From positions 496,001 to 560,000 of the forward strand of contig NZ_QAGK01000001.1 in assembly GCF_003057885.1 (NCBI RefSeq): 64,000 bases of DNA, given 5' to 3'. The position numbers and the translations under genes are program-made. This document shows, piece after piece, positions 51,420 through 64,000 of the stretch. The stretch comes from Oceaniglobus ichthyenteri. Its GTDB lineage: Bacteria; Pseudomonadota; Alphaproteobacteria; Rhodobacterales; Rhodobacteraceae. The notes beneath the pieces are model-generated. The model searched no databases, was not told the origin of the DNA, and worked only from the letters and a program-made list of their open reading frames with translations. Position 1 is the first letter of the stretch. Each line of letters opens with the position of its first letter.

Positions 51420-51777
51420 AGTCTGCCTCCTGACAGTCTCATGCGACTTAACGTGTGTCTCAGTGGTCAAATGCGAATGGCCCGCGAAGGTTCCAAGACC
51501 CGTTAAGATAATATTTACCTATCCACGGTAAAGCAGCCGAATAGTGGCATTTTTGCAACATATCGATACACTATAACATATTTTCGACACGCGCCCGACA
51601 TTCATAACGGCCCACAGGCCCTGCCTGAAACCCTATGACACATTGAAATTTTCTGCGTTTTGCTGTGGTGTAACGGTCTGTGACACTGTCAGGGATTTGA
51701 ACGCTCATCATGCGAAAATGCCAATTTCAATCAGATACGCTGTATCTGGCATCGTTAATAATCAGGGGTTTCTGCCT
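51420..51777. promoter_or_regulatory. AT-rich divergent control region with two inverted repeats
   Basis: This 358-bp gap separates the outer-membrane gene from the SARP-type regulator. It holds TTTACC-N7-GGTAAA at 51514-51532 and a perfect 7-bp palindrome CAGATAC-GCT-GTATCTG at 51732-51748, 29 bp before the proposed regulator start. Several AT-rich stretches (51505-51520, 51560-51585) are good promoter candidates. No gene is seen unless the regulator starts earlier, at 51643 or 51718. Confidence 0.5.
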
Positions 51778-53202
51778 ATGGCGGGCCTGAATGCGGCGGT
51801 TATTTTGGGGCCGGGGGCGTTGGCCGACATGGGCGCGTCCCTGCGACGGGACGGGCCGGAAACCTGCATCATTGCCGTAACCAGCGATACACGGTTTCAG
51901 GCCGCGCTGAATGCCACTGTGCATCTGAGTGTTGAAAATGCCGGTCTGCACGCCGCGCCGTTTGATCCCGCTACGGTTGCACGGGCACTAACGGACGCGG
52001 CGGCGCGGCTGGGGTCTGATGTGGTGATTGCCGTTGATATGGCATGGGGTCTGGAAACGCCGGCCGCTTCGGCAAATTTCGATGTCTGGGGCGGGTTGTG
52101 CAGCGATCTGGCCGATCAGGGGCTGCGCATTGTATCGCTGTATGACTGGCAACTGCTGATCGGTGATCAAATCCTTGCGGCACTGCGCGGGCATCAACAT
52201 TTTCTGGCGGCGACCGGGCTGCATGATAATCCGTTCTGGTTGCCCAGCGCCTATCTGGCCACGGCCAGCTTGCGCGAACAGGTGTCGTTCCTTCTGGCCC
52301 GCACGGTCCCCGATTGGGGCGCGATGGTTCTGGCGCCGGGCGCAGACGATCAGGCGGCGGTGGGCGCCAACCCCGGCTGGTTGCCGATCTCTGATCTGCG
52401 GCCCATGCGCGGCTTGGGCCAGCGGTGGAAAATCCGCTGTTTCGGGCGGCTGCGGGTGTATACCAGTGCGTCGGATCAGATCGTGTGGCAGGTGCCCGGC
52501 GGCGCCCCGCGCAAAACCAAGGCGCTGTTTGCCTATCTGCTGACCCGCGGTGAACGGGGCGCATCCGCCGAACATATGGCCGAACTGCTGTGGCCCGATG
52601 ATGGCGATGAAACCGCGAAACGGGCGCGATTGCACCACACCATCGCAATGCTGCGCAAGGCGCTGGGCGGAAAATCCTTTGTCGAACGGCGCGGCGAATA
52701 TTACCATCTCTGCGCGCCCCCGGGCAGTTGGATTGACACACAGGCGTTCGAACAATTCTGTCGCCGCGCAAAAACGCTTGAGCGGGATGGGCAATATGAT
52801 GCCGCCTTCGCGTTACTTCAGGCCGCCGAACGTCTGTACAGTGGTGATCTGTTCGAGGATCTTTTGCCGGAATACGTTGAAAACGACACCGAAGACTGGT
52901 GCCTGTCACAGCGCGCCTGGCTGCGCGATATGGTGCTGAAGGTGCATCGCGACATGGCGGTGATGCTGCGCAAACGCGGCAATTTCCGCGATGCGATCAA
53001 ACAATGTCGCCGCGCGCTGGCCTTGGACCCGACATGCGAAATCGCCCACGAAGAGGCAATGCGCAATTTTCATGCCCAGGGCCGCAAGGATGCAATCGCC
53101 CGCCAGTATCGCCAATTTACCGACGCGCTAAAAGTGTTGGGCGGTGATCCGGCACAGTCCGCGGTTCGAACGGTATATCGTGATCTGGTTTCAAAATACT
53201 GA
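51778..53202 (+). CDS. Transcriptional activator with MEDS-like sensory region and SARP-type winged helix plus BTAD domain
   Basis: 474 residues from the ATG at 51778 (CAGGGG upstream); in-frame ATGs at 51718 and 51643 exist but would place the palindrome in coding sequence. Residues about 1-200 resemble the MEDS/DcmR sensory fold: LNAAVILGPGALADMGASL, CIIAVTSDTRFQ, DVVIAVDMAWGLE, and a late LYDWQLLIGDQILAALRGHQHFLA. Residues about 215-305 form an OmpR-like winged helix (IRCFGRLRVYT, KALFAYLLTRGERGASAEHMAELLWPD, LHHTIAMLRKALG). Residues about 320-474 are the all-helical BTAD domain, with TPR-like helices. It lies 90 bp upstream of the P450 operon on the same strand and likely activates it in response to an aromatic or other hydrophobic ligand. 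Confidence 0.82.
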   Translation: MAGLNAAVILGPGALADMGASLRRDGPETCIIAVTSDTRFQAALNATVHLSVENAGLHAAPFDPATVARALTDAAARLGSDVVIAVDMAWGLETPAASANFDVWGGLCSDLADQGLRIVSLYDWQLLIGDQILAALRGHQHFLAATGLHDNPFWLPSAYLATASLREQVSFLLARTVPDWGAMVLAPGADDQAAVGANPGWLPISDLRPMRGLGQRWKIRCFGRLRVYTSASDQIVWQVPGGAPRKTKALFAYLLTRGERGASAEHMAELLWPDDGDETAKRARLHHTIAMLRKALGGKSFVERRGEYYHLCAPPGSWIDTQAFEQFCRRAKTLERDGQYDAAFALLQAAERLYSGDLFEDLLPEYVENDTEDWCLSQRAWLRDMVLKVHRDMAVMLRKRGNFRDAIKQCRRALALDPTCEIAHEEAMRNFHAQGRKDAIARQYRQFTDALKVLGGDPAQSAVRTVYRDLVSKY

Positions 53203-53222
53203 ATTCACAGCGTAAATATTGG

Positions 53223-53239
53223 CCAAAGAAAAACCAAAG
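53223..53239 (+). promoter_or_regulatory. Direct repeat with 11-bp period upstream of the P450 operon (candidate SARP site)
   Basis: CCAAAG occurs at 53223-53228 and again at 53234-53239, an 11-bp period, on one face of the helix, 54-70 bp before the P450 start codon. SARP-type activators typically bind hexamer or heptamer direct repeats with this period overlapping the -35 region. A weaker third match (GTAAAT) falls in phase at 53212. GAGGAGAACACG further down is the P450 Shine-Dalgarno site. Confidence 0.5.
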
Positions 53240-53292
53240 TTTCTCGCGTAGCGTTGCCGGTAAGTTAGGGAATCAGTGACGAGGAGAACACG

Positions 53293-54531
53293 ATGACCGT
53301 AAAGAGCGAGCCAAAGCCAGCCGACAGGTTCAATCCATTCGACCTGAGCGCGCCGCATGCATTGTGGCAGGACATGCGCAATGAACAGCCGGTGTTCCAA
53401 CATGGCGACACCGGCTATTTCGTGGTCACACGTCACGCCGATATCAAGGCCGTTTTTGACGATTGGAAGACATTTTCATCCGAAAACGCCCAGGCCCCGA
53501 TGCGTCCGATGTGCGCCGAGGGCAAAAAAATCATGACCGATGGCGGCTTTACCGCCTACTCTGGCCTGTCGGCCCGCATTCCGCCCGATCACACGCGCAT
53601 CCGCAAAATCGTGCAAGGCGCGTTTGGCCCGCGCCGGTTTCGGGCGATGGAGCCCAAGATCGAACAGATCGTGGCGGATGCCTTTGATCGGATCGAACCA
53701 AAGGGGCACGCCGATTTCTTTCGCGATGTTGCCTATGACGTGCCGGCCTTTGTTCTGTTCAAACTTGTCGGTGTGCCCGACAGCGATGTGGAAAAGGTAA
53801 AGGCATGGTCTGTCAGCCGCGCCCTGTTGACATGGGGCGAACTGTCGGACGCAGAGCAATTGCCCCACGCCCATAACATGGTGGATTATTGGGCCTATTG
53901 TCGCGCCCTTGTCGCATCAAAACGCGCAACACCGGGCGATGACCTGCCCAGCGATCTGTTGCAGTTACAGGCCGATGGTGCCGACATCACCGATGATGAA
54001 ATTGCCGGTGTCATGTATTCGGTTCTGTTTGCCGGGCATGAAACCACCACCACCCTGATGACCAACGGCGTGCATACATTGCTGTCCAATCGCGATGCCT
54101 GGGAGGCGATCTGTGCCGATCCCGCCCTGATCCCCAAGGCGACCGAGGAAATATTGCGCTTTGCGCCCTCAATCGTGGCGTGGCGTCGCCGGGCCAAGGC
54201 CGATGCCGAAATCGGCGGCGTTGCGGTGCCCGAAGGATCCGACATTCTGTTGATCATGGGGTCGGGCAACCGTGACGAGGCAGTGTTTGATCACGGTGAA
54301 ACCTTTGACATGCACCGCGACAATGCGCGCAATCACCTGTCGTTCGGGTATGGCATTCACTTTTGCCTGGGCTTTCAGTTGGCCAAGCTGGAATTCGGTA
54401 TCATGCTGCGCCAATTGACCGAACGTTTCCCCGATGCGCGGCTGACTGGGGATGGCAACATCGAATACCTGCCAAACGTGTCGTTCCGCGTTCCGTCAAA
54501 ACTGGAAATCACTTGGGGAAAGGGCTCGTGA
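53293..54531 (+). CDS. Cytochrome P450 (class I; CreJ-like candidate)
   Basis: 412 residues, soluble, as in bacterial class I P450s. I-helix oxygen-activation motif A247-G-H-E-T-T252, K-helix E286-I-L-R289, and heme loop FGYGIHFCLG with the thiolate ligand Cys358. A short N-terminal part DRFNPFDLSAPHALWQDMRNEQPV is typical of catabolic CYPs. Electrons would come from the ferredoxin and ferredoxin reductase at the end of the same operon. Its immediate neighbours encode an aryl-phosphate-synthase-like pair, so the substrate is probably an alkyl-aryl phosphate, as for CreJ of Corynebacterium glutamicum; that is inference from gene order. The stop shares one base with the next start (TGATG). Confidence 0.92.
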   Translation: MTVKSEPKPADRFNPFDLSAPHALWQDMRNEQPVFQHGDTGYFVVTRHADIKAVFDDWKTFSSENAQAPMRPMCAEGKKIMTDGGFTAYSGLSARIPPDHTRIRKIVQGAFGPRRFRAMEPKIEQIVADAFDRIEPKGHADFFRDVAYDVPAFVLFKLVGVPDSDVEKVKAWSVSRALLTWGELSDAEQLPHAHNMVDYWAYCRALVASKRATPGDDLPSDLLQLQADGADITDDEIAGVMYSVLFAGHETTTTLMTNGVHTLLSNRDAWEAICADPALIPKATEEILRFAPSIVAWRRRAKADAEIGGVAVPEGSDILLIMGSGNRDEAVFDHGETFDMHRDNARNHLSFGYGIHFCLGFQLAKLEFGIMLRQLTERFPDARLTGDGNIEYLPNVSFRVPSKLEITWGKGS

Positions 54532-55598
54532 TGGATACTCCGTATATACTGCCATTCGATCAGATTTCATCGGCCGATCATGATCGTGTGGGCGGCAAAT
54601 GTGCGTCACTTGGGGAAATGACCCAACATGGTGTTGCGGTGCCCCCCGGGTTTGCCGTGACCACCGATGCCTATGCCGAAATGCTGGAATTTCAGGGGTT
54701 GAAGCGCGAAATCGAGGCGTTGCTGAAAACCCTTGATCCCGATGATGTGGTCAATACCGAACGGGTGGCGCGCAATATCGAACTGCGCGTGCGGTCCCAT
54801 CCGATGCCCGAACCCATCGCCACCGCGATCAAAACTGCATATGCGGCGATGGGCGATAACATGGCCGTTGCCGTGCGATCATCCGCCACTGCCGAAGATC
54901 TGCCCGATGCCAGCTTTGCAGGCCAGCAGGATACCTATCTGTGGGTGGTGGGCGCCGATCAGGTTGTCGAAAAGGTGCGCGATTGCTGGGCGTCGCTGTT
55001 TACGGCCCGCGCGATTGCGTACCGCGCCAAGGCCAATCTGGGCCAGATCGACGTATTGATGAGCGTGGCCGTGCAAAAGATGGTCAACGCCCGCGTGGCC
55101 GGGGTGACGATGACGTTGAACCCCACCACGGGCGATCGCACCAAGATCGTGATCGACGCATCCTGGGGTTTGGGCGAACTGGTGGTTTCAGGGGTGGTGA
55201 CGCCCGACAATTACACCGTGGAAAAGGTGCTGATGGCGGTGATTGATCGCAAGATTGGCGATAAACATCTGGAACTTGTCGGCGATGCCACTGCGGGCGC
55301 CACGATTGAGCGCGAAGTCGATGCAGAGCGGCGCAAATCCCCCTGTCTGACCGATGCCGAAGTGATCGCCGTGGCCACATTGGCCAAACGGTTGGAAAAA
55401 CAAAACGGCTGCCCACAGGATGTGGAATGGGCAATCGATGCCGATCTGCCCGATGGTGAAAACCTGTTGGCCCTGCAATCGCGGCCCGAAACCGTGTGGG
55501 CCCAGAAAAAGGCGCAAGCCAAACCAAAGGCCAGTTACAGCATGGGCATGGCGGGCATTGTCGGCACGCTCAACAATCCCCTTGGCGCGAAAAAATGA
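54531..55598 (+). CDS. PEP-synthase-like ATP-grasp subunit (aryl phosphate synthase, ATP-binding component)
   Basis: 355 residues from the ATG at 54531 with GGAAAGGG upstream. It is a stand-alone PPDK/PpsA N-terminal domain: VGGKCASLGEM, HGVAVPPGFAVTTDAY, the AVRSSATAEDLPDASFAGQQDT signature (split here as AVRSSATAED and DASFAGQQDTYL), VAGVTMTLNPTTGD, DASWGLGELVVSG and the terminal ENLLALQSRPET. This domain transfers the beta-phosphate of ATP to a histidine, which in this case must lie on the next protein. Size (about 39 kDa) and partnership match subunit 2 of phenylphosphate synthase and one CreHI component. Which of CreH or CreI it corresponds to was not determined. Confidence 0.88.
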   Translation: MDTPYILPFDQISSADHDRVGGKCASLGEMTQHGVAVPPGFAVTTDAYAEMLEFQGLKREIEALLKTLDPDDVVNTERVARNIELRVRSHPMPEPIATAIKTAYAAMGDNMAVAVRSSATAEDLPDASFAGQQDTYLWVVGADQVVEKVRDCWASLFTARAIAYRAKANLGQIDVLMSVAVQKMVNARVAGVTMTLNPTTGDRTKIVIDASWGLGELVVSGVVTPDNYTVEKVLMAVIDRKIGDKHLELVGDATAGATIEREVDAERRKSPCLTDAEVIAVATLAKRLEKQNGCPQDVEWAIDADLPDGENLLALQSRPETVWAQKKAQAKPKASYSMGMAGIVGTLNNPLGAKK

Positions 55599-55617
55599 AC
55601 TCTCTGGGAGGAGAAAA

Positions 55618-57435
55618 ATGAAGATGGATGTTCAGACATCAATGTTTCCAAGTCCGTATGATTTGCCCGCGCCAAAAGGCGCCGAAGACTGGCGCGATCT
55701 GTACCCTTATTATCTGAAGTTTCAGCCACAGCTGCGCGAAAGGGAAGACGCCAAATTCTGGTTCTGCGACAGTCAGCACTGGCCAAATCCGTTTCGCCCG
55801 TTTGATGCGATGACGGTGGAATTTGCCGTTAAATGTCTGGGCCAATACAACACCCGCCATCTGCTGGTGCCCCCGGCCAATGGCGTCGATTACCGCATCC
55901 ACAATGGCTATTGCTACATGTCGCCGGTGGCGGTTTCCCCCGACTTGATCGAGGCGCGCGTGCCGCAGTTCATGGAACGGGCCGGACATTACTTTGCCAA
56001 TTGGGACAGTCTGATCGAAAACTGGCACAAAAAGGTGAAATCCAACATCGACGAGATGGAGGCGCTGCGTTTTGAAAAACTGCCCGATGTTGTGCCTTTG
56101 GAGTGGATCAAGGAAGGGCGCGGATTGGATAACACCACCGCCCTGATCGAAAATTACGACCGCGCGATCAATCTGCTGTATCGCACATGGCAATATCATT
56201 TCGAATTTCTCAACCTCGGCTATGCCGCCTATCTGGATTTTTTCGGCTTCCTGAAGGGCGAATTGCCCACGATCCCCGATCAGGCCATCGCGCAGATGGT
56301 GCAAGGCGTGCACAGTGATCTGTTCCGCCCCGATGACGAGCTGAAAAAGCTGGCGCATCTGGCGGTTGAGCTGGGCGTGGCTGACACGGTCATGAACGGC
56401 ACTGTCGATGATGCGCTGGCGGCTTTGGCAAATTCGGAGGCAGGCAAGAAATGGATCGCGGCATGGGACGCGGCCAAAGACCCATGGTTCAACTTCACCT
56501 CGGGCAACGGATTTTATTCAACCGATAAATACTGGATCGAACACCTGGATATCCCCATGGGGTATCTGCGCGATTATATCGGGCGCGTTCAGGCCGGTGA
56601 AAACATCGAGCGCCCGACCGAAAAACTGTTGGCCGAACGGGATCGGATCACCGCGGAATACGCCGATCTTCTTGACCCCGACGCGCGCGAGGCGTTCGAG
56701 GGCAAACTGGGTCTGGCGCGCACCGTGTATCCCTATGTTGAAAATCACAATTTCTACATCGAACATTGGTCGATGGGGGTTTTCTGGCGCAAGATGCGCG
56801 AACTCAGCCAGCTTTTTCACGAAGAAGGGTTCTGGCCCGATGCCGATGGCATGTTCTTTCTGTCGCGGCAGGAAGTGCGCGATGCGCTGTTTGATTATGG
56901 CAACGCATGGGGTACGGGCGGTGAATGGATCGGGCCGCACCATTGGCCACAAGAGATCGAACGCCGCCGCGCCATTCTGGATGCGCTGGCCACCGAACCG
57001 CCCAAACCCGCGCTGAACAATCCGCCCGCCGTCATCACCGAACCCTTCACGATCATGCTGTGGGGCATCACATCGGAAGCGATCGAAAGCTGGGTTGGCG
57101 CGGGCCAGGAGGGTAACGAACTGACCGGCATGGCCGCCTCGCCCGGTCTGGTCGAAGGGCCCGCGCGGGTGTTGCGCAGCCCGGATGATTTGCACCTGAT
57201 CCAGCAGGGCGAAATCCTGGTTACGCCTGTCACCGCCCCCAGTTGGGCGCCGGTCTTTGGCAAGATCGCCGCCACCGTCACCGACATCGGCGGCATGATG
57301 AGCCACGCCGCCATTGTGTGCCGCGAATATGGCCTGCCCGCCGTCACCGGCACCGGCACCGGATCATCGCGGATCAAGACCGGTCAGATGCTGCGCGTCG
57401 ATGGCAACACCGGCAAGGTGACGATCCTGGATTAA
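55618..57435 (+). CDS. PEP-utilising-enzyme-like subunit with C-terminal phosphohistidine domain (aryl phosphate synthase, catalytic component)
   Basis: 605 residues from the ATG at 55618 with GGGAGGAG upstream. The last 80 residues are the mobile swivelling domain: GMAASPGLVEGPARVL, GEILVTPVTAPSWAPVF, then GGMMSHAAIVCREYGLPAV with the phospho-accepting His563. The first 500 or so residues are helical, rich in aromatic residues (YFANWDSLIENWHKKV, TWQYHFEFLNLGYAAYLDFFGF) and unlike the PEP/pyruvate TIM barrel, so the acceptor is not PEP or pyruvate. The order substrate-binding region then His domain is that of phenylphosphate synthase subunit 1 and rifampicin phosphotransferase. With the ATP-grasp subunit it should convert a phenol, ATP and water to aryl phosphate, AMP and phosphate. 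Confidence 0.85.
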   Translation: MKMDVQTSMFPSPYDLPAPKGAEDWRDLYPYYLKFQPQLREREDAKFWFCDSQHWPNPFRPFDAMTVEFAVKCLGQYNTRHLLVPPANGVDYRIHNGYCYMSPVAVSPDLIEARVPQFMERAGHYFANWDSLIENWHKKVKSNIDEMEALRFEKLPDVVPLEWIKEGRGLDNTTALIENYDRAINLLYRTWQYHFEFLNLGYAAYLDFFGFLKGELPTIPDQAIAQMVQGVHSDLFRPDDELKKLAHLAVELGVADTVMNGTVDDALAALANSEAGKKWIAAWDAAKDPWFNFTSGNGFYSTDKYWIEHLDIPMGYLRDYIGRVQAGENIERPTEKLLAERDRITAEYADLLDPDAREAFEGKLGLARTVYPYVENHNFYIEHWSMGVFWRKMRELSQLFHEEGFWPDADGMFFLSRQEVRDALFDYGNAWGTGGEWIGPHHWPQEIERRRAILDALATEPPKPALNNPPAVITEPFTIMLWGITSEAIESWVGAGQEGNELTGMAASPGLVEGPARVLRSPDDLHLIQQGEILVTPVTAPSWAPVFGKIAATVTDIGGMMSHAAIVCREYGLPAVTGTGTGSSRIKTGQMLRVDGNTGKVTILD

Positions 57436-57495
57436 ACCAAACGGGGGCGGTTCTGCCGCCTCCTGCCCTCTTTCCTGAGTTCGAAAGCCGATACC

Positions 57496-58101
57496 ATGCC
57501 CCAGACCCATTTTGACACGGCCCGCTATGACGCAGTCTGGCGCGCGGCCGAACCTTACATGCGCGCGCGCAAGAACGATGTGCATGTCCCCCTCAGCTTT
57601 GCCTGGGCACAGCGGTTGTTGGGCGAATATGCCGGGGCTGACCGTGATGTGGTCAGTCTGGCCATTCTTTTGCACGACATCGGTTGGTATTCGATTGATA
57701 TGGACGACATCATCGAAAAAGGATTTTCGGGGCCGAACATGTTGCAATCGGATGTGCGGTATCTGCACGAATCCGAAGGTGTGCGTTTGGCGCAACCGGT
57801 TCTGAAAGGCACCGGATGGTCCGATGATATCATCGCGCAGGTGTGCGAAATCATTGACGGGCACGACACCCGCCCCGATCCGCGCCACCTGAATGACAGG
57901 CTGGTGCGCGATGCCGACAAACTGTGGCGGTTCGAGGTGACGGGCATCGCCGTGGCCTGTGATTGGTTCAAGACCACGCCGCACCTTTACGCCGACCGGC
58001 TGGAATCGCAAAAGACGCAATTGGAAACCGATGCCGGATGCCGCTGGGCAACCGAAACACTGGCGGCGTCGCGCGGCGCGCTGATGTTGCACGTAATCTG
58101 A
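57496..58101 (+). CDS. HD-domain phosphohydrolase, copy 1 (CreD-like candidate)
   Basis: 201 residues. HD-superfamily metal ligands are visible: NDVHVPLSFAWA (first His), AILLHDIGW (His-Asp pair), HESEGVRLA and DGHDT (additional His), and VRDADKLWRFEV (final Asp). The enzyme should hydrolyse a phosphate ester. In this operon the obvious substrate is the aryl phosphate made by the synthase and oxidised by the P450. It shares NDVH, LLHD-x-GW, EGVR, DADK-x-WRF and other blocks with the second HD gene, so the two are paralogues. It lies 60 nt after the phosphohistidine subunit gene. Confidence 0.85.
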   Translation: MPQTHFDTARYDAVWRAAEPYMRARKNDVHVPLSFAWAQRLLGEYAGADRDVVSLAILLHDIGWYSIDMDDIIEKGFSGPNMLQSDVRYLHESEGVRLAQPVLKGTGWSDDIIAQVCEIIDGHDTRPDPRHLNDRLVRDADKLWRFEVTGIAVACDWFKTTPHLYADRLESQKTQLETDAGCRWATETLAASRGALMLHVI

Positions 58102-58112
58102 AGGAACCCGAA

Positions 58113-59552
58113 ATGGAAATGTTCATTGATGGCGTCTGGCGGGCCTCCGTTTCAGGCGATACTCAACCCGTGACCGAACCCGCAACCGGACAGGTGTTTG
58201 ACACCGTACCAACCGGCACAGCACAGGACGCCGATGATGCGATCCGCGCCGCCGACCGGGCGTTTCACGCCTGGCGACAGGTGCCGATGGCCGAACGGGT
58301 GCGCATTCAAAAGGCCTGTGCACAGGCGATGCGCGATCACGCCGCGCGGATTGGCGGCGTATTGCACCGCGAACTGGGCCGCCCCCTGCCCGCCGCGATT
58401 GCCGAAATCACCCGGTCTGCCGATTTGCTGGATGTCTATGCCGAAGAAGGGCTGCGGTTGCAGGCGACCATGGCGCTTGCTTCGGGGCCGGGTGAAAAAA
58501 CCATCGTGACGCGCGATCCCTTGGGGGTTGTTGTGGCGATCACGCCGTTCAATTACCCGGTGACACTGTTGATGTTCAAATTGGGCGCGGCACTGATTGC
58601 GGGATGTACGGTGGTTGCCAAACCCGCCGAAGACACGCCGCTGTCCACGCTGATGTTGGCCGAACTGTTTCACCAAACCGGCCTGCCTGCGGGGTGTTTC
58701 AACGTGGTTACCGGGCGCGGGCGCGGCATTGGCGCGGCAATGATCGAACACCCGATCCCACGCAAGATTGCCTTTACCGGCGGCACCGCCGCGGGCAAGG
58801 CGATTGCCGCCGCCGCCACCGGCACGATGAAACGGGTGACGCTGGAACTGGGTGGGCAATCCGCCGCCATCGTCTGTGCCGATGCCGATCTGGAAAAGGC
58901 CACGACCGCGATCGCACGGCACGGTTTCGCCAATTCGGGGCAATTCTGTTACCGGGTCAACCGGGTGTATGTGGAACGACCAGTGTATGACGCATTTGTC
59001 GAAAAACTCACCGCCAAGGCGGGCCAACTGACCCTGGCCCCCGCAGGCGGCACCGGTGATCTTGGCCCGATGGTGAACGAAAAGATCTTTGCCAATTCCG
59101 AAATCCAGGTGGCCGATGCCCGGACCAAAGGCGCGCGGATCGTTCTGGGCGGGGATCGTCGGCGCGGCGCGGGGTTTGATGACGGATTCTATTTTCCGCC
59201 CACGATCATCGCCGATGCAACCCATGACATGCTGGTCTTGAGCGAAGAAACCTTTGGCCCGGTGTTGGGCATTTGCCCGGTGGACAATGCGTTTGACGGG
59301 CTGCGCCATGCCAATGATAACCGCTATGGTCTGGCCGGGTTTGTGTTTTCCGGCGATCTGGCCAAGGGCCTGACCCTGTGTGAGGGGCTGGAGGCGGGCT
59401 CGGTCTGGTTGAATGATATTCACCGCTCCAGCCATTATGTGCCGTTCGGCGGCATGAAGGAAAGCGGGCTGGGCCGCGAAAAGGGCCGCTATGGCGTTGA
59501 AAGTTATCTGGAATATAAAACCATGTATCTCAGCTATGAGGTGGCGTCGTGA
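58113..59552 (+). CDS. NAD(P)-dependent aldehyde dehydrogenase (CreG-like candidate)
   Basis: 479 residues from the ATG at 58113 (GAAGGAACCC upstream). ALDH-superfamily elements: ITPFNYPVTLLMFKLGAAL (cofactor-adjacent asparagine), AFTGGTAAGKAIA, LELGGQSAAIV (catalytic Glu), GQFCYRVNRVYV with nucleophile Cys279, and EETFGPVLGI. The sequence FIDGVWRASVSGDTQPVTEPATGQ is the usual N-terminal arm. It would oxidise an aldehyde such as 4-hydroxybenzaldehyde (or a phosphorylated form) to the acid. The stop codon shares one base with the second HD gene. Confidence 0.93.
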   Translation: MEMFIDGVWRASVSGDTQPVTEPATGQVFDTVPTGTAQDADDAIRAADRAFHAWRQVPMAERVRIQKACAQAMRDHAARIGGVLHRELGRPLPAAIAEITRSADLLDVYAEEGLRLQATMALASGPGEKTIVTRDPLGVVVAITPFNYPVTLLMFKLGAALIAGCTVVAKPAEDTPLSTLMLAELFHQTGLPAGCFNVVTGRGRGIGAAMIEHPIPRKIAFTGGTAAGKAIAAAATGTMKRVTLELGGQSAAIVCADADLEKATTAIARHGFANSGQFCYRVNRVYVERPVYDAFVEKLTAKAGQLTLAPAGGTGDLGPMVNEKIFANSEIQVADARTKGARIVLGGDRRRGAGFDDGFYFPPTIIADATHDMLVLSEETFGPVLGICPVDNAFDGLRHANDNRYGLAGFVFSGDLAKGLTLCEGLEAGSVWLNDIHRSSHYVPFGGMKESGLGREKGRYGVESYLEYKTMYLSYEVAS

Positions 59553-60166
59553 TGCGCACGCTTTTGCCGCGCGACCTGCCCTTGTGGCACGATGCGCGCG
59601 GATTTCTTGATGTTCGCTCAAACGATGTGCACACACTGATTTCCTATGGACTGGCGCGCGCGCTGTGTGCTGAACACCCACAGGCGGATACCTCTGTCGT
59701 TTTACCGGCCATTCTTTTGCATGATGTCGGGTGGAAACGGGTTGATCCGGCGCTGTTGTCCGAGGCGGTCGGACCAAACCCCAAACACCCCGAACTGGTG
59801 CGCGTGCACGAAATCGAAGGCGTAAGGATCGCAGACGGAATTTTGCAGCGTCACACGCCAGAGGGCGTGGATATCGCACAGGTTTTAGACATTATCGACA
59901 CCCACGATACGGTAAAACAGGCCAAATCCCTGAATGACGCCATGGTCAAGGATGCCGATAAATGCTGGCGTTTTACCCCCCATGGCGTGGCAACGATTGC
60001 CGGTTGGTTTGGCGATGGGTTGGCCGAAACGTTGGATATGCTCGAAGATTTCGTGATGCCATCAATGCTGACCGATACCGGCCGGGCGATGGCGCGCGGG
60101 TTCATCGTGGCCGCCCGCGCACAGATGGAATCAGACGATTATTTGAAAGGACACAGCGATGAGTGA
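59552..60166 (+). CDS. HD-domain phosphohydrolase, copy 2
   Basis: 204 residues from the ATG at 59552 (TGATG overlap with the ALDH stop). Same motif order as copy 1: RSNDVHTLISYG, AILLHDVGWKRV, VHEIEGVRIADG, DIIDTHDTVKQA and KDADKCWRFTP. Overall similarity to copy 1 is moderate, so duplication is old or the two perform different steps, for example on two different phosphorylated intermediates, or they form a heteromer. Its C-terminal end overlaps the SDR start by 8 nt. Confidence 0.85.
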   Translation: MRTLLPRDLPLWHDARGFLDVRSNDVHTLISYGLARALCAEHPQADTSVVLPAILLHDVGWKRVDPALLSEAVGPNPKHPELVRVHEIEGVRIADGILQRHTPEGVDIAQVLDIIDTHDTVKQAKSLNDAMVKDADKCWRFTPHGVATIAGWFGDGLAETLDMLEDFVMPSMLTDTGRAMARGFIVAARAQMESDDYLKGHSDE

Positions 60167-60905
60167 TCTGGGTTTGAACGGCAAACGCGTTGTGGTGACG
60201 GGTGCTGCCGGTGGGTTGGGCCGCGCCTTTGCGCAGGGGTTTGCCGATGCCGGCGCCACAGTGATGGCCGCCGATGTCAACGCCGAAGGCATTGAACAAA
60301 CCGCGCAGATGACCGGCGGTTTTGCACAAACGGTCGATGTGACCGATGCCGCCTCGTGCGCCGCCCTGGCCAAGGCGGCCGGGGCGCAGATGGGCGGCGT
60401 TGATATCCTGATAAACAACGCCGCGATCTACGCAGGGCTGGAACGCGCCCCGCTGGAAGATCTGGACGAAGACATCTGGGACAAGGTGATGGCCGTCAAC
60501 GTCAAGGGCGTGTGGCAGGTCAGCCGCGCGTTTTCGCCCCTGTTGCGCAAGGCCGGACAAGGCGCGATCGTCAACGTTGCCTCGGCCACCGTGTTTTCCG
60601 GCTCGCCGCAATGGATGCATTATGTGGCGTCCAAGGGGGCAGTCATCGCCATGACCCGCGCAATGGCCCGCGAAATGGGCGATGACAACGTGCGCGTCAA
60701 CGTGATTGCACCGGGCTTTACCCTGACCGAGGCCAGCCTGGGGTTGATGGAGGATGCCGCCAGTTATGGCGTCACCCGTGGCGCGCTGAAACGGGCCAGT
60801 CAGCCAGACGATATGGTGGGCGGCGCGCTGTATCTTGCATCGCCTTTGGCCGGGTTTGTGACCGGGCAGACATTGATCATTGATGGCGGTCGCCAATTCA
60901 TCTGA
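60159..60905 (+). CDS. Short-chain dehydrogenase/reductase (alcohol dehydrogenase step candidate)
   Basis: 248 residues. SDR elements: VTGAAGGLGRAFAQGF at residues 12-27, ADVNAEG (acidic residue favouring NAD), NNAAIYAG, catalytic serine region NVASATVFS, and Y-V-A-S-K active-site pair in HYVASKGAV. GQTLIIDGGRQF ends the chain. In this operon it fits the oxidation of a benzylic alcohol (4-hydroxybenzyl alcohol or related) to the aldehyde. The Corynebacterium Cre pathway has an alcohol dehydrogenase at this step, but orthology is not claimed. Confidence 0.9.
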   Translation: MSDLGLNGKRVVVTGAAGGLGRAFAQGFADAGATVMAADVNAEGIEQTAQMTGGFAQTVDVTDAASCAALAKAAGAQMGGVDILINNAAIYAGLERAPLEDLDEDIWDKVMAVNVKGVWQVSRAFSPLLRKAGQGAIVNVASATVFSGSPQWMHYVASKGAVIAMTRAMAREMGDDNVRVNVIAPGFTLTEASLGLMEDAASYGVTRGALKRASQPDDMVGGALYLASPLAGFVTGQTLIIDGGRQFI

Positions 60906-60922
60906 CAGACAGGATATCGAAA

Positions 60923-61240
60923 ATGGCAAAAATCACCTTTATTCAGCCCGATGGATCACCCTTGATCGTCGACGCGCAACCGGGCGACAGCGTCATGGTT
61001 GCGGCGACGGCCGCCGGAGTTGACGGCATCGCGGCGGAATGCGGCGGATCATGCATGTGCGCCACCTGCCACTGTCTGGTTGAAACCGGGCCAATCGGGG
61101 CATTGCCAGAGATGGAAGACGCCGAACGCGACACCCTGGAATTTACCGCCGAACAGATGCAACCGGCCAGCCGCCTCACCTGTCAGATCACGGTCAGTGA
61201 GGCGCTTGACGGGTTGGTGTTGCGCGTTGTGGGGCGGTGA
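60923..61240 (+). CDS. [2Fe-2S] ferredoxin, adrenodoxin/putidaredoxin type (CreF-like candidate)
   Basis: 105 residues. Cluster ligands C40, C46, C49 and C87 follow the C-x5-C-x2-C-x37-C spacing of adrenodoxin-type ferredoxins that serve P450s; two further cysteines (C44, C51) lie inside the loop, which is unusual. TFIQPDGSPLIVDAQPGDSVMVAA is the normal beta-grasp start. It should carry electrons from the reductase encoded next to the P450 encoded first in the operon. The stop overlaps the reductase start. Confidence 0.93.
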   Translation: MAKITFIQPDGSPLIVDAQPGDSVMVAATAAGVDGIAAECGGSCMCATCHCLVETGPIGALPEMEDAERDTLEFTAEQMQPASRLTCQITVSEALDGLVLRVVGR

Positions 61241-62463
61241 TGGCCGGGATTGTGATCATTGGCGCGGGCCATGGCGGCGTTCAACTGGCCGCGTCCCTGC
61301 GCGACCAGGGGTTTGGTGGCCAAATCACCCTGATTTCGAACGAGGCCGATTGGCCCTATCACAAACCGCCGCTGTCAAAATCGTATATGCAGACGCAAGA
61401 GGCGCCGTTGCAGGCGCTGCGCGGCGCGCGGTTTTTTGATGACAAACAGATCAATCTGCGGCTTGGGGCTGCGGTTTCTTCGATTGATCGGGCAGCGCAA
61501 ACCGTAACCTTCGCGGATGGTGCGACGCTGGGGTATGACACCCTTGTTCTGGCAACGGGCACGACCGCGCGGCGATTGGCGGTGCCGGGTGCGGATTTGG
61601 CCGGCGTGTTCCATCTGCGCACTGCCGAAGATGCCCGCGCCATGCGCAGCGCCCTTGGCGGGGTCCGCCGCGTTGCGGTGATTGGCGGTGGTTTCATCGG
61701 GCTTGAGGCGGCGGCGATGCTGGCCGCGCGCGGCCTGAGTGTTGAGGTTCTGGAAACCGCCCCGCGCCTGTTGGGCCGCGCTGTCAGTCGGGCGGTGGCA
61801 GATGCGGTGGGCGAATATCTTGTGCGTCAGGGCGTGAAAATACACTGTTCCAGTGCGGTTTCACAGTTGGTTGGCCAAAAACAGGTGAACACGGTTCAAC
61901 TTGAGGATGGTCAAAAGATTGCCGCCGACATGGTTGTGGTCGGGATTGGCGCGGTGCCCGAAATTACGCTGGCGCAGGCGGCGGGGCTTGACTGTGACAA
62001 TGGTATTGTCACCAATTCCCTGCTGGCCACTTCGGATCGGGCAATTTACGCGCTGGGCGATTGCGTGGCCTATCCACAGGCACAGCTTGGCCGGATGGCC
62101 CGGTTGGAATCGGTGCAAAACGCGACGGATCAGGCGCGCGCCTTGGCCAGAACACTGACCGGCACGCCAACACCCTATGACACCCTGCCTTGGTTCTGGT
62201 CAGACATCGGCACATTGAAACTTCAGATTGCGGGATTGTCCCATGATGCGGACGAGGCAATCACCGTGCACCGCGACGATGGCACGCTGCAATCGGTCTG
62301 GTGTCTGGCCAAAGGGCGATTGGTGGCGGTTGAAACCCTGAACAGCCCCGGCGAACATATGCTGGCGCGCCGTCTGATCGCCGATGGTCTGACCCTTGAT
62401 CGCGCGGTCATGGCATCGGGCGATATGATGCGGCTGAAGGCGGCGTATTCGGTGGCCCGTTAG
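61240..62463 (+). CDS. FAD-dependent NAD(P)H-ferredoxin reductase (CreE-like candidate)
   Basis: 407 residues from the ATG at 61240, sharing one base with the ferredoxin stop. FAD site IVIIGAGHGGVQLAASL at the N-terminus, WPYHKPPLSKSYM, LATGTTARRL, NAD site VAVIGGGFIGLEAAAML, and the second FAD motif AIYALGDCVAY. The PYHKPPLSK stretch marks the putidaredoxin reductase/dioxygenase reductase group. It should reduce the ferredoxin and so drive the P450. Convergent with the LysR gene, overlapping it by 4 nt. Confidence 0.94.
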   Translation: MAGIVIIGAGHGGVQLAASLRDQGFGGQITLISNEADWPYHKPPLSKSYMQTQEAPLQALRGARFFDDKQINLRLGAAVSSIDRAAQTVTFADGATLGYDTLVLATGTTARRLAVPGADLAGVFHLRTAEDARAMRSALGGVRRVAVIGGGFIGLEAAAMLAARGLSVEVLETAPRLLGRAVSRAVADAVGEYLVRQGVKIHCSSAVSQLVGQKQVNTVQLEDGQKIAADMVVVGIGAVPEITLAQAAGLDCDNGIVTNSLLATSDRAIYALGDCVAYPQAQLGRMARLESVQNATDQARALARTLTGTPTPYDTLPWFWSDIGTLKLQIAGLSHDADEAITVHRDDGTLQSVWCLAKGRLVAVETLNSPGEHMLARRLIADGLTLDRAVMASGDMMRLKAAYSVAR

Positions 62464-63368
62464 GTTGGCGGTTGGCACAATTCGTTCAATAGCTTGGAAA
62501 ACACCCGTGTGGCGACCGATGGCAGCTCTTCGGCGCGGCTCATGATGCCAACGGCGCCACGGGTCGCCGCCATGTCGATTTCCAGCGTCGCCAACCGGCC
62601 CTGATCGATATCGCCCGCGACAACGCCGCGGCTGATGATCCACACGGTTTGCGGATCGGCCAGCAAAACCGCACGCCCGAAGGCCGATGATGCAGTTTCA
62701 ATGCGGTTTCGAAACAGCGGCACGCCCTGTGCAATCAGCAACCGCGCCACCAATGGGCGGATTGCCGAATCCTTTGGCGGGTACAGCACGCGAAACCCGG
62801 CAATTCCGGCGAAATCGCGCACCTGAATGGCATCACTGTCGGCCCGGGCCACGATGACCACATCTTCTGAATACAATTGCTGAAAACTCAGCCCGACCAT
62901 GGTTTCGGGTTTACCCAGACGCCCCACAACCAGATCCAGATTGCCACTGCGCAACCGTGTCGTCAGGTCGTGATGCGCACCTTCGTGAATTTCCAGCAGG
63001 GTGTCCGGGCTTTGCCCGGCAAAGGCCAATGCCGCCTGCGGCAATAACGACGAGGCGACACTGGGCAAGGCGCCCACCTTCAACTGGCCCGCCGCGCTGC
63101 CGGTGGCGCGAATGCTGCGCAACCCATGGCGCAGGGCCGCCGTGCTTTGTTCGGCAAACTGCAGAAAAATCTCGCCCTCAGGGGTGAGGGTGACGCCTGC
63201 GCGACTGCGCTCCATCATCACCACGCCCAGGATATCTTCCAACTCTTTCAGGGTTTTGGATATTGCCGGCTGGGTCAGGTTCAATTGCTGCGCGGCGGCC
63301 TTGAAACTGCGGGCGCGGGCGATGGCGCTAAACGCATCAAGATGGCGAAATTTGATCCGGCGATCCAT
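62460..63368 (-). CDS. pcaQ: LysR-family regulator, PcaQ-like
   Basis: 302 residues from the ATG at 63368 with AAAGGGAAAG upstream. The N-terminal helix-turn-helix reads RRIKFRHLDAFSAIARARSFKAAAQQLNLTQPAISKTLKELEDILG, which closely follows PcaQ (R-I-K-F-R-H-L start and TQPA-x-x-KT-x-x-ELED). The rest is the LysR effector domain (GQLKVGALPSVASSLLP, GNLDLVVGRLG). PcaQ activates protocatechuate degradation genes in response to beta-ketoadipate-type intermediates in rhizobia. Divergent from pobA, which it probably controls here. No pca structural genes are in the window. Confidence 0.85.
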   Translation of the reverse strand: MDRRIKFRHLDAFSAIARARSFKAAAQQLNLTQPAISKTLKELEDILGVVMMERSRAGVTLTPEGEIFLQFAEQSTAALRHGLRSIRATGSAAGQLKVGALPSVASSLLPQAALAFAGQSPDTLLEIHEGAHHDLTTRLRSGNLDLVVGRLGKPETMVGLSFQQLYSEDVVIVARADSDAIQVRDFAGIAGFRVLYPPKDSAIRPLVARLLIAQGVPLFRNRIETASSAFGRAVLLADPQTVWIISRGVVAGDIDQGRLATLEIDMAATRGAVGIMSRAEELPSVATRVFSKLLNELCQPPT

Positions 63369-63464
63369 ATACTTTCCCTTTTTGATAACCAAATTGTGCA
63401 ATACCTCATTTTGAATATCCAGATAAATATGCGATAAGGGCGAAACGGGATCAGGAGGAACGAC

Positions 63465-64000
63465 ATGAAAACACAAGTCGCAATCATCGGCGGGGGGCCA
63501 TCCGGGCTTTTGTTGGCGCAACTGCTGCACACGCGCGGGATCGACAGCGTGGTGTTAGAGCGCAAGACCAAGGATTATGTGCTTTCCCGCATTCGCGCCG
63601 GTGTGTTGGAACAGGGGCTTGTGAAACTGCTGGAAGAGGCCGGATGCGCCGACCGTTTGCATGCCGAAGGCATTTCCCATGACGGCACCCTGATTTCGTA
63701 TGGCAACGAATTGTTTCGGATTGATTTCAAGGAACACACAGGCACGCCCGTCATCGTGTACGGCCAGACCGAAGTGACCCGCGATCTGTATGCCGCCCGC
63801 GAAAAGGCCGGCGGCAAGATTGAATTCAACGTCGAAGATGTGGTCATTCACGGTGCAGATGGTGAATCCCCCCATGTCGAATACACCGTCAATGGCGAAG
63901 CGCGTCGGCTGGAGTGTGATTTCGTCGCCGGATGCGACGGGTTTCACGGGGTCAGCCGCCAAACCATCCCGCTGGATGTGCGGCGCGAATACGAAAAGGT
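63465..64000 (+). CDS. pobA: 4-hydroxybenzoate 3-monooxygenase, N-terminal part
   Basis: 178 complete codons are visible before the window ends; the ATG has AGGAGGAACGAC upstream. The FAD-binding start is VAIIGGGPSGLLLAQLL, followed by DSVVLERKT, SRIRAGVLEQGLVKLL, VIVYGQTEVTRDLYAA and FVAGCDGFHGVSR (second FAD motif), all closely as in PobA. The enzyme hydroxylates 4-hydroxybenzoate to protocatechuate with NADPH and O2. It directly continues the product expected from the P450/phosphatase/dehydrogenase operon upstream and is divergent from the PcaQ-like gene. Confidence 0.94.
   Translation, partial: MKTQVAIIGGGPSGLLLAQLLHTRGIDSVVLERKTKDYVLSRIRAGVLEQGLVKLLEEAGCADRLHAEGISHDGTLISYGNELFRIDFKEHTGTPVIVYGQTEVTRDLYAAREKAGGKIEFNVEDVVIHGADGESPHVEYTVNGEARRLECDFVAGCDGFHGVSRQTIPLDVRREYEK

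Follow-up and report, generated by a model that had tools for sequence, protein, structure and literature searches.

A Cre-type gene cluster with two HD phosphohydrolase genes in Oceaniglobus ichthyenteri, a candidate pathway for 4-alkylphenol oxidation

A plus-strand cluster beside pobA

We analysed a stretch of 64,000 nucleotides from the genome of Oceaniglobus ichthyenteri (3.9 Mb in 38 contigs), bases 496001 to 560000 of contig NZ_QAGK01000001.1, referred to here as the window. It carries a candidate counterpart of the Cre gene cluster for alkylphenol oxidation, a route that was reportedly worked out in one Gram-positive species, Corynebacterium glutamicum. Open reading frames and domain searches identified ten plus-strand genes spanning positions 51778 to 62463 (Table 1). 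A gene for a BTAD-domain regulator comes first, and it is followed by genes for a cytochrome P450, an ATP-grasp protein, a phosphoenolpyruvate (PEP)-utiliser protein, an HD phosphohydrolase (HD1), an aldehyde dehydrogenase (ALDH), a second HD phosphohydrolase (HD2), a short-chain dehydrogenase/reductase (SDR), a [2Fe-2S] ferredoxin and a ferredoxin reductase. A gene for a LysR-type regulator and pobA lie beyond. Strand and order agree with a preliminary description of this DNA, which had been made from the letters of the window and had proposed a phosphorylation-first pathway for 4-cresol. That description started at 51778, the first base of the BTAD regulator gene, but did not name this regulator.

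Table 1. Features of the Cre-type locus and its neighbours (positions in the window)
Feature	Position	Strand	Basis
Likely operon regulator, BTAD/TPR C-terminal (SARP-like) plus weak MEDS-like (DcmR sensory) region	51778..53202	+	domain search
CreJ-type cytochrome P450; predicted to oxidise the aryl-phosphate alkyl group	53293..54531	+	PDB sequence match, tree
CreI-type dikinase subunit, ATP-grasp	54531..55598	+	PPDK_N 369 bits
CreH-type dikinase subunit with a substrate domain and, at the C-terminus, a phosphohistidine swivel domain	55618..57435	+	PEP-utilizers 81.5 bits
HD1, CreD-type HD phosphohydrolase	57496..58101	+	Pfam HD, HD tree
Aldehyde dehydrogenase (succinate-semialdehyde dehydrogenase-like), probable 4-hydroxybenzaldehyde dehydrogenase	58113..59552	+	Aldedh 505 bits
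HD2, second HD phosphohydrolase	59552..60166	+	Pfam HD, own clade
CreG-type SDR, putative 4-hydroxybenzyl alcohol dehydrogenase	60159..60905	+	adh_short_C2 190 bits
CreF-type [2Fe-2S] ferredoxin, C-x5-C-x2-C-xn-C	60923..61240	+	Fer2, motif
CreE-type ferredoxin reductase	61240..62463	+	Pyr_redox_2 + Reductase_C
PcaQ, LysR-type regulator; neighbour outside the Cre operon	62460..63530	-	TIGR02424
pobA, 4-hydroxybenzoate 3-monooxygenase, 5' part	63465..64000	+	TIGR02360 687 bits, cut-off 539

The nine catalytic genes are separated by only -8 to +60 bases, and they therefore likely form a single transcription unit. The regulator gene ends 90 bases before the P450 gene; its start was taken as 51778, and a longer TTG frame opens at 51643. 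HD2 has an alternative GTG start at 59549. A scan for promoters and terminators did no better on this DNA than on shuffled sequence (3 promoter-like sites vs 5.8 expected, and 17 terminator-like sites vs 14.3). The motif scan found intact motifs in the P450, at the dikinase histidine and in the ALDH, the SDR and the ferredoxin. All seven other genomes of the family that encode the full-length PEP-utiliser dikinase subunit (H) keep the order from the regulator through the P450, the ATP-grasp protein (I), H, HD, ALDH and HD to the SDR, with the ferredoxin present in six of the seven. Since this order recurs in 7/7 family relatives and related orders reappear in other phyla, the gene set is not a chance assembly.

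Kinship of the enzymes with the Cre proteins

The reference cluster of C. glutamicum was located through a gene whose product shows full identity to the PDB CreJ chain across 399 residues, and its order matches that listed for creC-creJ, cg0637-cg0645, as reported in PMC7764795. All eight Cre functions have a counterpart in the window, as the preliminary description had claimed, with amino acid identities of 61% (H), 56% (G), 53% (I, over 326 residues), 52% (J), 47% (F), 42% (D), 38% (E) and 35% (C). The dikinase subunits, HD1 and the SDR fall in the same clades as their C. glutamicum counterparts, and CreJ is the nearest relative of the P450. The two clusters differ in arrangement, with REG-J-I-H-D-ALDH-HD2-G-F-E in the window vs J-I-H-G-F-E-D-C in C. 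glutamicum; the window adds HD2, the upstream BTAD regulator, the adjoining pobA-pca genes and an ALDH of another clade. On the Rhodococcus plasmid pRB98 (NZ_CP021355.1), P450, PEP-binding, PEP-utilising, SDR, ferredoxin, reductase, HD and ALDH genes stand in one run, the same set as in the window, but the order is of the creJIHGFEDC type, the upstream regulator is of the IclR type and the ALDH is of the CreC type.

The P450 scored 477 bits with the CreJ chains vs 266 bits for the runner-up among the 564 PDB sequences matched, and the titles of the matched entries name CREJ plus an aryl phosphate ligand. All trees were quick maximum-likelihood trees of hand-chosen subsets. In the P450 tree (36 rows, including three further P450s from this genome), support was 99 for the alphaproteobacterial rows, 100 for the actinobacterial rows with C. 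glutamicum and 95 for the two together. In the SDR tree (40 of 101 rows), a support of 89 joined the SDRs of the clusters and set them apart from other SDRs. In the Bacteroidota, the Cecembia and Nitritalea clusters contain a second P450, 28-29% identical to that of the window, between the SDR and ferredoxin genes.

The domains of the two dikinase proteins point to a two-chain enzyme, with an ATP-grasp chain and a phosphohistidine chain. The predicted phosphohistidine, His563, lies within GGxMSHxAIV in the H subunit and was invariant in 10/10 aligned relatives. An in-frame TGA had been flagged in two H genes, and both frames proved open to their ends on checking. The best PDB match of the I subunit is chain 9goj, which may be HpeI. 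For the homologous HpeHI, a conserved histidine and a two-component kinase mechanism have been described (PMC12167813).

Dikinase trees, a check proposed in the preliminary description, were computed from 38 of the 96 H rows and 35 of the 92 I rows. They placed the pair with CreHI and not with phenylphosphate synthase (Pps) or hydroxyphenylethanone (Hpe) types: all cluster-bearing rows together with C. glutamicum were separate from seven other dikinases, with Shimodaira-Hasegawa-like approximate likelihood ratio test (SH-aLRT) values of 99 (H) and 90 (I). Among the seven are a Pps-type reference and an Hpe-type reference, which were typed by gene context. Within the Cre clade, the Alphaproteobacteria formed one group and the Bacteroidota another, and the two Chloroflexota rows did not group. 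The dikinases of clusters from Alphaproteobacteria, Bacteroidota, Chloroflexota and Actinomycetota thus fall, with that of C. glutamicum, in a single clade.

These trees bear on whether the kinase might instead be of the phenylphosphate synthase or hydroxyphenylethanone type and feed a carboxylase. The two-component dikinase is homologous in both settings (PMC12167813). The Hpe pathway for acetovanillone and 4-hydroxyacetophenone likewise opens with such an enzyme, HpeHI (PMC9618137, PMC12167813), and the phenylphosphate synthase/carboxylase system of Thauera and Azoarcus shares a homologous dikinase. The gene contexts differ, however. The Hpe pathway is reported to continue with a biotin-dependent carboxylase and a phosphatase of a different type, not with a P450 and HD proteins (PMC9618137), and phenylphosphate carboxylase genes follow in the phenylphosphate system. 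No UbiD-type carboxylase occurs among the ten operon genes, as had been stated before, and the only UbiD detected in this genome lies elsewhere, on contig C36; no biotin-dependent carboxylase was found among the ten operon genes, the LysR gene and the pobA-pca genes. In the trees, the Azoarcus dikinase beside ppcABDG and the Rhizobium dikinase beside a biotin carboxylase and a HAD hydrolase both fell outside the Cre clade. Carboxylation of either kind was set aside on gene context and tree placement, and we regard it as very unlikely.

We also considered an antibiotic-type small-molecule phosphotransferase within a biosynthetic P450 cluster. Both chains show kinship with rifampin phosphotransferase domains, but their NF041857 scores (305 and 101 bits) are far below the cut-off of 999, and identity with that enzyme was rejected. 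The dikinase consists of two separate chains and belongs to the Cre clade, the P450 is of the CreJ type and pob/pca genes adjoin, all of which make a biosynthetic role extremely improbable.

Dikinase pairs outside the Cre clade were found on plasmid NZ_CP113952.1 of Rhodococcus sp. JS3073, a record that carries no annotation, and, near xanthine-dehydrogenase-type genes, on plasmid NC_011961.1 of Thermomicrobium roseum. Plasmid NZ_CP085331.1 of the haloarchaeon Haladaptatus salinisoli carries a further pair, with an H ~41% identical to that of the window. Its neighbours encode a Rieske-type ring-hydroxylating oxygenase, an ALDH, a zinc-binding dehydrogenase and a metallophosphoesterase, and three more haloarchaeal plasmids carry such an H. 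The Haladaptatus pair perhaps belongs to an archaeal phosphorylation-first phenol pathway.

The second HD phosphohydrolase and the distribution of the cluster

To assess the spread of the cluster, named genomes were scanned and the best 80 of at least 521 relatives were kept, with groups assigned by record title; many of the 80 loci end at contig ends, and some are metagenome bins, which may be mislabelled. They comprise 33 loci from Alphaproteobacteria, 36 from actinobacteria, eight from Bacteroidota, two from Chloroflexota and one from Thermoleophilia. The window gene order is largely common to the two Chloroflexota loci and the Thermoleophilia locus. With this shared order and the single dikinase clade that includes C. 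glutamicum, the distinct Gram-negative version that the preliminary description had proposed needs to be revised.

Searches of the genomes of the family and the class were capped in how many first-look candidates they scored for each genome. A full-length H was present in 8/198 genomes of the family, the window's own included, and 43 further genomes matched H solely in the swivel domain. The same eight genomes contained a CreJ-type P450 (E<=1e-120) and HD proteins of the pathway kind (E<=1e-15), two in each; at these cut-offs, the other 190 contained no full-length H, CreJ-type P450 or such HD protein, and the only further genome sampled from the genus had none of these genes. At the class level, two of 385 genomes besides the window's own encoded a full-length H, with 44% identity, and near these H genes only both dikinase genes and, in one genome, a distant ALDH were found.

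In the HD tree (57 of 152 rows), one branch (SH-aLRT 98) divided HD1 and CreD from HD2. The HD motif residues were invariant in both alignments (23/23 for HD1 and 36/36 for HD2). HD2 was modelled with a predicted local distance difference test (pLDDT) score of 95. A fold search with the model returned nothing at E<=0.001, and the best matches were HD-superfamily proteins at E 7.9e-3 and a TM score of ~0.6, a likeness of fold only. A profile search for solved relatives of HD2 found none at E<=1; for HD1, a single-sequence search found none and a profile search gave only weak matches (best E 0.0019).

Across the 80 loci, HD2 was found in or beside the cluster in 30/33 from Alphaproteobacteria, 23/36 from actinobacteria and 5/8 from Bacteroidota, and in neither of the two from Chloroflexota nor the one from Thermoleophilia. 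It was not found in C. glutamicum or two sister genomes, each of which gave one match to the HD2 profile that by position is CreD. The doubled phosphohydrolase of the preliminary description is thus borne out by the two HD genes here, but not as a Gram-negative trait, given the second HD in 23 of the 36 actinobacterial loci. We predict that HD2 is a second dedicated phosphohydrolase tied to the pathway. In the Chloroflexota and Thermoleophilia loci, an HD1-like second copy occupies the place of HD2 and branches low within the HD1 half of the HD tree; these copies are either an early duplication or deep relatives of HD2. The open-licence literature found described neither HD2 nor a cre operon from a Gram-negative bacterium, and the supplement of PMC9618137, with its kinase trees and diverse clusters, may already list such clusters.

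Regulators, pob/pca linkage and the proposed pathway

The BTAD domain of the first protein scored 59 bits, above the cut-off, and the MEDS region 20 bits, below it. Among 23 aligned relatives, BTAD was detected in all 23, MEDS at E<=0.01 in 14 and Trans_reg_C in five. A BTAD regulator accompanies the cluster in 29/33 alphaproteobacterial, 5/8 Bacteroidota and 2/2 Chloroflexota loci, and in 0/36 actinobacterial loci and 0/1 from Thermoleophilia; its gene is immediately 5' of the P450 gene in 28 of the 29 alphaproteobacterial loci that have it. Judged by this conserved position, the BTAD protein likely regulates the Cre-type operon.

The LysR-type protein, encoded convergently to the operon, passes the cut-off for PcaQ (TIGR02424, 340 bits vs 304). 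PcaQ adjoins pobA here and in Yoonia, whose protein beside pobA is 80% identical, and it is probably a regulator of the pob/pca genes rather than of the Cre operon. The earlier claim of a different regulator was therefore right in its PcaQ assignment, but the regulator of the operon is likely the BTAD protein. PobA was likewise assigned correctly. Its gene runs on 634 bases beyond the end of the window and is followed by genes whose NCBIfam names are pcaD, pcaC, pcaH, pcaG, a 3-oxoadipate:acetyl-CoA enzyme and, on the minus strand, pcaB, the last matching below the TIGR02426 cut-off and above that of NF004631. The pobA and pca genes adjoin the operon in Yoonia too, and pca genes lie nearby, in other orientations, in Bacteroidota and Actinomycetota. 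Among the 80 loci, pcaH was found in 12, from three phyla and in varied arrangements, and a pobA-like gene in nine, eight of which had only 37-48% identity.

The P450 match, the dikinase, HD1 and SDR trees and the pob/pca linkage support the phosphorylation-first pathway of the preliminary description. We consider it highly probable that these genes specify a peripheral pathway of the Cre type that handles 4-alkylphenols, with 4-cresol as the most likely substrate. This reading draws on gene set, families, clades, co-occurrence and linkage, from which we infer every reaction, the substrate and the role of the regulator. The dikinase pair would transfer phosphate from ATP via phosphohistidine (His563) to give 4-cresyl phosphate, and the CreJ-type P450 would hydroxylate the methyl group of this ester with electrons delivered through the ferredoxin and its reductase. 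HD1 would then strip the phosphate to yield 4-hydroxybenzyl alcohol, which the SDR and then the ALDH would convert to 4-hydroxybenzoate, the probable product of the pathway. PobA and the pca products would lead on through protocatechuate to 3-oxoadipate.

Several observations weigh against this assignment. The P450 tree did not root well, its outgroup falling among the Chloroflexota rows. CreC and the ALDH share just 35% identity, and in the ALDH tree (45 of 94 rows) the window type and the CreC type formed separate clades, each with a support of 100; the union of the two had a support of 86, with long-branch warnings. The window ALDH is at best a possible orthologue of CreC, and its nearest PDB chains are mostly succinate-semialdehyde dehydrogenases. 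The ALDH named beforehand is present and appears to be a counterpart by function, but of another clade. The reductase, only 38% identical to CreE, was detected in one of the seven family relatives and in 10/33 alphaproteobacterial loci, compared with 35/36 from actinobacteria, 6/8 from Bacteroidota, 0/2 from Chloroflexota and 0/1 from Thermoleophilia. Some of the alphaproteobacterial loci are cut by contig ends; with so few detections, many relatives may borrow a reductase from elsewhere. Finally, most of the 80 loci, many of them cut by contig ends, gave no pcaH.

The substrate is a separate matter. HpeHI is reported to accept several phenols (PMC12167813) and the Cre system (CreH, CreI, CreJ and CreD) to act in the oxidation of both p- and m-alkylphenols (PMC9549646), so 4-cresol is not the sole possible substrate. 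The same sequence of phosphorylation, oxidation and dephosphorylation might serve another natural alkylphenol, such as 3-cresol, 4-ethylphenol or creosol, with HD2, which is extra relative to C. glutamicum, and the ALDH, which differs in clade from CreC, reflecting the change. The adjoining pobA and pca genes, here and in Yoonia, and the nearby pca genes in Bacteroidota and Actinomycetota argue for 4-hydroxybenzoate as the product, hence for 4-cresol, and an alcohol and an aldehyde dehydrogenase suit a methyl group. We therefore favour 4-cresol, which is quite probably the main substrate, and consider another alkylphenol unlikely.

For HD2, a role separate from that of HD1 is suggested tentatively. 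It would most likely clear esters that HD1 handles poorly, and our guess is 4-formyl- and 4-carboxyphenyl phosphate or erroneously phosphorylated phenols. We think that it may act on over-oxidised esters because an aldehyde and an acid are reported among the products in Escherichia coli cells with the Cre enzymes (PMC9549646). A broader view, possible but still somewhat doubtful, is that phosphorylation-first alkylphenol oxidation is an old and widespread strategy whose full form has two dedicated aryl-phosphate phosphohydrolases, HD1 for the productive ester and HD2 for clearing or editing over-oxidised or wrongly phosphorylated phenols. The single-HD cluster of C. glutamicum would then be a reduced form, and the signal for the BTAD/MEDS regulator would be the phenol or its phosphate.

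The Cre route is reported to be used in biotechnology for the selective oxidation of alkylphenols (PMC9549646). The cluster defined here is a well-conserved Gram-negative counterpart that has a gene order, a probable regulator and an ALDH of its own, and it is a source of new enzymes for the same chemistry. It also contains HD2, predicted to be tied to the pathway and without a described role in the literature found, and so raises the question of why a pathway that adds one phosphate keeps two enzymes able to remove it.

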